A stretch of DNA of 62,833 nt from a virus. Where the stretch lies: IMG/VR virus record IMGVR_UViG_3300033144_005983, positions 1 to 62,833 of that record, one strand, 5' to 3'. The stretch's first letter is position 1, and every line of letters begins with the position of its first letter. The translations under genes and the position numbers were made by a program. Below the pieces are notes generated by a model, which searched no databases, was not told where the DNA came from, and saw nothing but the letters and a program-made list of their open reading frames with translations. Of this stretch, positions 53,396 to 55,543 are shown piece after piece.

Positions 53396-53797
53396 ATGGG
53401 ATGTGGGTGTAAAAAAGGTAAAGCGAAAAGTATAGTAGCTAGTGCCAAAAAAATTAAAGAGACTGCTTCTCAAATACTTAAGGGGTGGTCTATTTATGCT
53501 AAAGGCAACGCAAATGCTAATCTTCAGGCAATAGCAGATTATCGTGCAGAAATATGTACAGGATGCCCTGAATTAAAAGCATCAAGTTTTTGGAAGTTCA
53601 TGACGACCCAAGTTTTGAAACACGGAAACCTTGAAGTAAATCAAATAAAGAAAGAAGTAGGAGAAAATCAAGACTGGGATCTGGCAGGTTACAAATGTAA
53701 CAAATGTGGATGTGCTTTTCCTGCTGCACTTTATGTAGAAGAAAAAGAATGTCCTTTAGGAAAATGGGAAAAAAAAGAAACAAATGAATCTCTTTGA
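53396..53797 (+). CDS. Zinc-ribbon protein, 133 aa
   Basis: The MGCGCKKGK opening, CTGCPEL and CNKCGCAFPAALY with a later ECPLGKW give several Cys pairs typical of phage zinc ribbons. The N-terminus is basic. Function unknown; it overlaps the next gene by 14 bases, so it may be linked to packaging. Confidence 0.65.
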   Translation: MGCGCKKGKAKSIVASAKKIKETASQILKGWSIYAKGNANANLQAIADYRAEICTGCPELKASSFWKFMTTQVLKHGNLEVNQIKKEVGENQDWDLAGYKCNKCGCAFPAALYVEEKECPLGKWEKKETNESL

Positions 53798-54330: not shown

Positions 54331-54564
54331 ATGGAACAAGTAAAAATAGATATAAAATTCCTAGTCACCATTGGTGCTATAGTTGCATCACTTGGTGGTT
54401 TCTACTTTACAACATCTATGCGAATAGATCAATTGGAGGAAAAGGTAGGCCAATTAGAAAAGAATAATGAAGCTATTATTCGGTTAGAAGAAAGATTAAA
54501 AAACGTTCAAACAAAAACAGATGAAATATACGCACATATTATGGATTTTATTAGCGATAAGTAG
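54331..54564 (+). CDS. Inner-membrane coiled-coil protein, i-spanin or holin
   Basis: I chose the ATG at 54331 (MEQVKIDIKFL); a GTG 13 codons upstream would overlap the previous gene. One hydrophobic span (about 8-27) is followed by a long coiled coil (MRIDQLEEKVGQLEKNN, then ERLKNVQTKTDE), the layout of an i-spanin. A 44-base overlap with the lipoprotein gene recalls the Rz/Rz1 pair. A holin role is also possible; no other candidate holin is seen. Confidence 0.6.
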   Translation: MEQVKIDIKFLVTIGAIVASLGGFYFTTSMRIDQLEEKVGQLEKNNEAIIRLEERLKNVQTKTDEIYAHIMDFISDK

Positions 54565-54748
54565 TTGTACTTATTTCCAAGGAGAAGGCAGTCAAACAAT
54601 TGATAGTCTTAAAACAGATAGTATAAAAATAGATACTACAAAAGTGGATACACCAGAAGTGGATTCTAGAACAGAGGTCCTTGACACTTTAAAAAAAAAG
54701 ACTGCGAGCATTCACTACACAATCAAGTGCGTAGCGTACAGGAGCTAG
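54521..54748 (+). CDS. o-spanin-like lipoprotein, with -1 frameshift extension
   Basis: The signal MKYTHILWILLAISSC ends in a lipobox (ISSC, Cys16). The gene begins inside the TM/coiled-coil gene in another frame, as Rz1 does inside Rz. The unshifted product has 75 residues and ends soon after an A9 run. At that run a -1 shift on A AAA AAG (54694-54700) enters an open frame with a coiled coil (VQELENKLDRLKTKLEE) that stops at 54870, giving about 116 residues. The extended form ends 13 bases before the amidase start and looks like the more complete protein. Confidence 0.65.
   Translation: MKYTHILWILLAISSCTYFQGEGSQTIDSLKTDSIKIDTTKVDTPEVDSRTEVLDTLKKKTASIHYTIKCVAYRS
54691..54700 (+). promoter_or_regulatory. 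Candidate -1 ribosomal frameshift site
   Basis: Nine A then G. In the lipoprotein frame the last seven bases read A AAA AAG, the heptamer used by E. coli dnaX. No clear stimulatory stem was found directly downstream. An assembly error in the A-run would look the same. Confidence 0.5.
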
Positions 54749-54883
54749 AGAACAAGTTAGACAGACTTAAAACCAAATTAGAAGAGCGTAAAAAACGCAA
54801 AGCTGATAGACAAAAAAGAAGAAAGCAAAGTGCTGAAACTTATAATAAAGGGAATAAAGAAAGTTATTAAAAACTACATAGTT

Positions 54884-55543
54884 ATGGATATGGATCTTAA
54901 AATAGAAGATAAATCTAAAAATGACTCAAAATATCTTTGGTTATTAGATCCTGGACATGGCGGTATGATCGACGGGCAATACCAAACAGCAGGAAAAAGA
55001 TCACCTAAATTTGCAGATGGAACTGTATTATATGAAGGAGAACTTAACAGAGCTATTGTACAAAGAATTGATAGTGCATGTAATGCAGCAGGTATAGATT
55101 CAATAGTACTTGTTCCTGAAGAAGAAGATATTTCTTTAAAGGAAAGAGTGCGACGTGCTAATGATTTTTATAAAGTTGATAAAAGAGCGGTCTATCTAAG
55201 TGTTCACGCAAATGCCTTTGGTAATGATTGGAATCAAGCTCATGGATGGTCCTGTTATACTTCAAAAGGAGAGACACGATCAGACCAAATAGCTACTATA
55301 TTTTATAGAATGATGGCAGCTGAATTTCCAGAAGAGAGAATGCGTAAAGACAATACAGATAATGATCCTGATAAGGAAGCAGACTTTTACGTTTTAAAGA
55401 AAACAGCTATGCCTGCCGTGTTAACTGAGAATTTTTTTATGACAAATAGTACAGAAGCATTAATGCTGCTAAATGAAAATATAAGAGATAGAATAGCAGA
55501 TGCACATATGGATGCGATATACTATTTAAGTAAAGTAATTTAA
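54884..55543 (+). CDS. N-acetylmuramoyl-L-alanine amidase (endolysin)
   Basis: The frame could begin at a GTG at 54830, but the ATG at 54884 clears the frameshifted spanin ORF and gives 219 residues. The LLDPGHGG motif (about 20-27), Glu of GELNR (about 52), SVHANA (about 106) and LTENFF (about 179) are the zinc ligands and catalytic Glu of Amidase_3 enzymes. It cuts the peptide off the glycan strand in peptidoglycan. No signal peptide, so a holin-type release is expected. Confidence 0.9.
   Translation: MDMDLKIEDKSKNDSKYLWLLDPGHGGMIDGQYQTAGKRSPKFADGTVLYEGELNRAIVQRIDSACNAAGIDSIVLVPEEEDISLKERVRRANDFYKVDKRAVYLSVHANAFGNDWNQAHGWSCYTSKGETRSDQIATIFYRMMAAEFPEERMRKDNTDNDPDKEADFYVLKKTAMPAVLTENFFMTNSTEALMLLNENIRDRIADAHMDAIYYLSKVI

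Follow-up and report, generated by a model that had tools for sequence, protein, structure and literature searches.

How does a phage make a complete outer-membrane spanin (o-spanin) when the gene for it is divided over two reading frames? The question is raised by a virus record of 62,833 bases (IMGVR_UViG_3300033144_005983), analysed along its whole length and referred to here as the window, in which a lipoprotein gene of the predicted lysis module enters a run of nine As and soon reaches a stop codon, while a coiled coil continues in the -1 frame. We consider it highly likely that this gene is recoded, either by polymerase slippage or by a ribosomal shift, the full-length o-spanin very probably arising through a deliberate slip in transcription or translation. 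Slippage by RNA polymerase is our preferred main route at runs of nine or ten As (A9 or A10), and we assign it a probability of roughly 0.57.

The run in the window consists of exactly nine As followed by a G (Table 1). The lipoprotein frame (0 frame), read as ...GAC ACT TTA AAA AAA AAG ACT GCG..., stops at 54748, and the -1 frame, read as ...KKKDCEHSLHNQVRSVQELENKLDRLKTKLEERKKRK..., is open from just 6 nucleotides (nt) 5' of the run to 54870 and contains no ATG. A first-pass annotation of this DNA had placed in the lipoprotein frame an A AAA AAG heptamer and had proposed that a -1 shift leads into a coiled-coil open reading frame (ORF) ending 13 nt before the ATG of the amidase gene (54884), giving a fusion of 116 residues (aa). 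We recovered each of these features, and its view that both parts belong to one o-spanin agrees with four relatives (L025-L028) that encode the same two parts in one frame. Its expectation that either A8 or A10 would restore one uninterrupted ORF was wrong for A8, as a single continuous ORF would require A10 or A7. The annotation had also overlooked part of the spanin context: the o-spanin frame begins inside an upstream gene for an inner-membrane spanin-like (i-spanin-like) protein, in the +1 frame relative to it, and overlaps it by 44 nt.

Frame relation and selection among relatives

We searched IMG/VR with the i-spanin, an i-spanin alignment and the -1 segment, which gave 19 contigs with the overlapping pair and, with the window, 20 records, in each of which all three frames were read. 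Contigs relisted as L084-L097, L100-L105 and L107-L109 were duplicates by contig name and were dropped before counting; four pairs are identical in the gene (L023 and L022, L027 and L026, L028 and L026, L099 and L098). The same frame relation was found in 16 of the 20 records, representing 14 distinct shift-bearing sequences, despite varying linker and coil lengths. Fourteen records (13 distinct) carry A9 or A10 followed by a coiled coil in the -1 frame; in two of these (L020 and L021) the run is A10, and the frame relation is nonetheless kept. Two further records, L098 and L099, read TTT AAA AAA G, where the A AAA AAG heptamer contains six As (A6G) and lies one codon before the 0-frame stop; they likewise continue in the -1 frame, the 0-frame tail of L098 being almost absent. 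A slippage-type A9/A10 run thus marks the conserved frame transition in all 13 distinct A9/A10 sequences, the window included, and is missing from L098/L099, which have six As; an in-frame A AAA AAA or A AAA AAG is present in 15 of the 15 rows examined.

The remaining four records (L025-L028; 2 distinct) lack the run and encode lipoprotein and coiled coil in a single frame (...DTAKKCQKDVIYEQMDRMSKLERKLERIKKKLERTKR). In the i-spanin tree, which has no starred branch, this one-frame pair falls inside the A9 group. The first-pass annotation had held that single-frame relatives would speak against a frameshift; such relatives exist (4/20), and since 16 of the 20 records keep the split, we read them as support for a fusion that is the working protein, and not as a refutation of recoding. 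Homopolymers are error-prone, and with one-frame relatives at hand the split might be put down to an indel, from sequencing or assembly, in a normal single-frame o-spanin gene; this is contradicted by a frame relation common to 16 records and 14 distinct sequences with three run types (A9, A10 and A6G), and we give it next to no credence. Only marginally better placed, and still very improbable, is phase variation, in which replication slippage would toggle the run between lengths that are in frame (A10/A7) and one that is out of frame (A9), leaving one form per phage: an A9 run would be prone to replication errors as well, yet an in-frame length occurs in 0 of the 14 A9/A10-group records, and the split is kept in the L098 branch with only six As.

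To estimate selection, dN/dS (the ratio of nonsynonymous to synonymous change) was pooled over pairs of the 13 distinct sequences with divergence >0 and <0.30 (44 of 78 pairs beyond the 0-frame stop; 34 of 78, for the -1 frame, inside the overlap), these pairs being non-independent. Beyond the 0-frame stop, dN/dS was 0.07 in the -1 frame versus 0.71 and 2.96 in the other two frames; past this stop, purifying selection acts on the -1 frame only. Where the frames overlap, values were 0.53 (0 frame) and 0.54 (-1 frame), and the proportion of synonymous differences (pS) was 0.257 just 3' of the run versus 0.695 further on. In a subgroup whose A9 is followed by T (L015, L016, L017, L018, L019, L022 and L106; 7/7 distinct), the run and the next 24 nt form an invariant 33-nt block; a functional 0-frame tail encoded together with the -1 frame, a stimulator in this sequence or its recent spread might each explain the block and the low pS.

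These values also bear on whether the coiled coil is a separate protein, started at an internal GTG or ATG, or the remnant of a decaying gene. From a GTG at 54727 a product of 47 aa could be started, but the -1 frame holds no ATG, GTG or TTG before the junction in 15 of 15 rows; all internal starts lie past the junction, mostly with 25-47 codons left, and a product from them would be without a signal sequence and part of the helix. The dN/dS of 0.07 speaks against decay, and we regard both versions as scarcely credible. Together, the conserved frame relation and the frame-specific selection strongly support recoding.

Long A runs are otherwise scarce in the window. When ORFs of at least 100 aa were compared with 200 synonymous shuffles, we counted 18 runs of at least seven As (45.9 +/- 4.5 expected), 3 of at least eight (16.3 +/- 2.9 expected) and 0 of at least nine (3.4 +/- 1.4 expected). 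These counts indicate that long A runs are generally avoided in the coding DNA of the window and are kept at the o-spanin site. An A8 run lies at 53769, near the end of the ORF at 53396-53797, and the next gene starts at 53784.

Routes of recoding at the A run

In the mechanism that we propose, faithful mRNA would yield a short lipoprotein consisting of a lipid anchor, a flexible linker and a 15-residue tail, and a slip at the A9/A10 run would fuse this lipoprotein with the coiled coil of the -1 frame; the resulting full o-spanin could reach across the periplasm and pair with the i-spanin. In A9/A10 members RNA polymerase would most often add one A (giving A10 transcripts in the window); ribosomal -1 slippage on A AAA AAA or A AAA AAG may contribute there, and in the A6G branch it is the likely route. 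Lysis may be tuned by how much short product is made relative to long.

For a ribosomal shift seven bases suffice, and a stimulator is the usual aid; A AAA AAG is the heptamer at which the ribosome shifts in E. coli dnaX. When 45, 70 and 100 nt past the site were folded in 14 rows, no downstream structure was apparent (mean z 0.06, -0.18 and -0.46), and at 70 nt only L020, L021 and L083 came near -2. An element resembling a Shine-Dalgarno sequence (GAGG) was found in 1 of 15 rows, that of the window, 17 nt before the run. The lack of structure and of a conserved element of this kind favours slippage by the polymerase for A9/A10 members. In published work, nine As or Ts allow efficient in vivo slippage by bacterial RNA polymerase (PMC5009743, in the portion available), and nine is the run length avoided in many bacterial genomes (PMC1088944, likewise in part).

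Programmed -1 ribosomal frameshifting on A AAA AAG or A AAA AAA, with faithful RNA, is the serious competitor, less probable in our judgement than slippage by the polymerase. It accounts for the in-frame A AAA AAA of every A9/A10 member, to which the window adds A AAA AAG, and for the bare (TT)A AAA AAG of L098/L099, where a polymerase slip is not a simple option; the GAGG of the window would fit it, and the invariant block and low pS past the run could reflect a stimulator. It leaves unexplained why, L098 and the one-frame pair aside, each of the 13 distinct sequences has A9 or A10 when A7 or A6G would suffice, and the rows offer it neither stable downstream structure (mean z -0.18 at 70 nt) nor, in 14 of 15, a Shine-Dalgarno-like element.

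Several observations weigh against polymerase slippage as the main route or against parts of the mechanism. The run of L098/L099 comprises six As within a classical ribosomal heptamer, a length taken as too short for ordinary RNA-polymerase slippage, which implies that the family can use ribosomal shifting, and every A9/A10 member also has an in-frame A AAA AAA. L025-L028 work with one long form, which implies that the short form is not essential everywhere. The matches to spanin families are weak, and neither spanin-like protein attains the Pfam cut-off. Finally, the slip and its two products are predicted from sequence rather than from transcripts or proteins. For most members the data cannot separate polymerase slippage from -1 ribosomal frameshifting. 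Of the frameshift reading given in the first-pass annotation, the recoding itself is borne out by the relatives and the frame-specific selection, and the same arrangement recurs, as it had suggested checking; a -1 ribosomal shift as the sole option is not, as polymerase slippage fits at least as well.

The spanin pair and its gene neighbourhood

The lysis module on the + strand runs from the i-spanin-like ORF through the lipoprotein ORF and the amidase to the terminase large subunit and the portal protein (Table 1). The i-spanin-like ORF has a hydrophobic N terminus and then a heptad-like region (alignment A1; topology by eye), and its best PHROG match is phrog_739, an Rz-like spanin (E 6.6e-5), with a holin family, phrog_1296, a close second (E 1.3e-4). 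The fusion gives a weak match to phrog_3268, a spanin (E 0.0085), and the short form alone gives no spanin match; nor does the one-frame o-spanin of L025 match a PHROG named spanin. In 15 of 15 shift-bearing rows the hydrophobic N terminus ends in a lipobox-like Cys at residue 15-18, and in L025/L026 it does so at residue 13 (by eye). The genes overlap and lie close to an endolysin in the window, and in relatives they are followed by amidase-like or other ORFs. The two are putative spanins, which would disrupt the outer membrane in lysis.

Table 1. Predicted features of the o-spanin locus in the window.
Feature	Position	Strand	Remarks
i-spanin-like ORF, 77 aa	54331..54564	+	N-terminal hydrophobic segment, coiled coil after; alignment A1; 18 viral contigs hold homologues
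o-spanin 0-frame product (short form), 75-aa lipoprotein, ...ILLAISSC	54521..54748	+	
A9 run	54691..54699	+	A10 in L020/L021; A6G instead in L098/L099; none in L025-L028
A AAA AAG heptamer, lipoprotein frame	54694..54700	+	A AAA AAA at 54691-54697 likewise in frame
-1 frame segment (coiled coil, junction Cys)	54685..54870	+	reached only via a shift
Fusion product, 116 aa	from 54521, -1 frame stop 54870	+	
Endolysin, N-acetylmuramoyl-L-alanine amidase (Amidase_3)	54884..55543	+	Pfam PF01520 E 1e-25; phrog_435 endolysin E 5e-28

In an AlphaFold2 model of the one-frame homologue from L025 (two-sequence alignment; mean predicted local distance difference test score 63.5), a linker leads into a single confident helix, which spans residues 44-81 and has its start at the junction; split members would thus encode the helix in the -1 frame, leaving the short product with an anchor, a linker and a short tail. 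A Cys lies within a few residues of the long-form junction in 13 of 13 distinct A9/A10 sequences, and each of the 13 has one in the 0-frame tail too. In lambda, the single Cys of Rz1 links two copies of the protein into a disulphide-bonded homodimer (PMC5295617, in the text available), so with a Cys in each form, both could in principle dimerise. We put forward, tentatively and as less likely than not, that this is the first known case of a recoded spanin: slippage at the conserved A9/A10 run would set the ratio of short to long form, both being functional and the short one comprising anchor, linker and Cys-bearing 0-frame tail, and would tune spanin assembly and lysis timing, the signal having changed back and forth in evolution between a polymerase slip site (A9/A10), a ribosomal one (A6G) and a one-frame state in which no recoding is needed.

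The gene 3' of the pair varies among relatives (L015, L018, L019, L022, L024, L025, L026, L083 and L098) while the o-spanin is retained; it is Amidase_3-like, of a second amidase-like type or peptidase-like, or a large terminase-like ORF follows directly (assigned by eye outside the window). In L016 a possible holin, 78 aa long and with a single strongly hydrophobic segment, is encoded from 1815 on, between the o-spanin and an amidase-like ORF. Elsewhere in the window, positions 1906-23853 form a single ORF of 7,315 aa with Pfam matches to DUF7831, 2OG-Fe(II) oxygenase, AAA_30 helicase-type and tRNA-ligase phosphodiesterase-like domains.

No spanin pair was seen just upstream of the amidase in L002-L005, whose amidases are 88-89% identical to that of the window. 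In isolated phages, tblastn with the fusion, the L017 i-spanin and the L025 o-spanin gave no homologue (chance matches only for the L025 o-spanin), and two scans of bacterial genome contigs gave none. Flavobacterium phage Fpv20 is similar to the window in a 261-bp stretch of the terminase gene; the ORFs of at least 40 aa listed upstream of its terminase do not include such a pair. At 55 terminase-related loci, many with little upstream DNA, there was no i-spanin match beyond L001 at E <= 1.

Relation to known spanins and recoding systems

The layout recalls the two-component spanins (lambda Rz/Rz1; overlapped, as in P2 LysB/LysC), in which a transmembrane i-spanin is overlapped by a +1-frame o-spanin lipoprotein with the endolysin adjacent, and whose periplasmic parts likewise feature a coiled coil and Cys; definitions, including the overlapped layout, are given in the parts of PMC6139136 and PMC5295617 available. 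The difference is that here the o-spanin itself is divided over two frames at an A run. In the accessible text of PMC6139136 'frameshift' appears once, for the register of i- and o-spanin. A literature search whose coverage omitted most subscription papers and preprints showed no recoded spanin among the papers listed, and the frameshifts in the passages it supplied were those of tail, capsid and various other genes or referred to the register of i- and o-spanin. The type of signal and the type of protein are each known separately; their combination was not found in the literature searched.

In those passages, recoding in tailed phages concerns mainly virion structural and assembly genes. If our reading is true, conserved recoding at the outer-membrane step of lysis would widen it to lysis control, and a single small gene that occurs naturally with A9, A10 or A6G or in one frame would be a compact system for studying how slippage by the polymerase and by the ribosome substitute for one another. 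Such o-spanins would be overlooked or cut short by gene callers, and this may partly explain why spanins are unfound in some phages.

The phage tail assembly chaperones G/GT and the T7 capsid proteins 10A/10B also show conserved -1 recoding into two products with a shared N terminus (PMC3556154, PMC4283147 and PMC7660901, in excerpt), but these are virion structural or assembly proteins, whereas here a lysis protein is concerned. The same pair of signals is found in dnaX, used by the polymerase in Thermus (slippage at A9) and by the ribosome in E. coli (PMC1088944 and PMC5009743, in excerpt); there the shift yields the shorter form, whereas here it would yield the longer, presumably working one. 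The closest mechanistic parallel is tssM1 of Citrobacter rodentium, in which transcriptional slippage at an A11 run before a stop yields two versions of an envelope protein, one short and one full-length, both of which, and their ratio, are needed (PMC4256274, in excerpt). Both genes have an A run before a stop and two forms, predicted in our case; unlike tssM1, an inner-membrane protein of bacterial type VI secretion with which we claim no homology, the A9/A10 run described here lies in a phage lysis lipoprotein deduced from genomic data.
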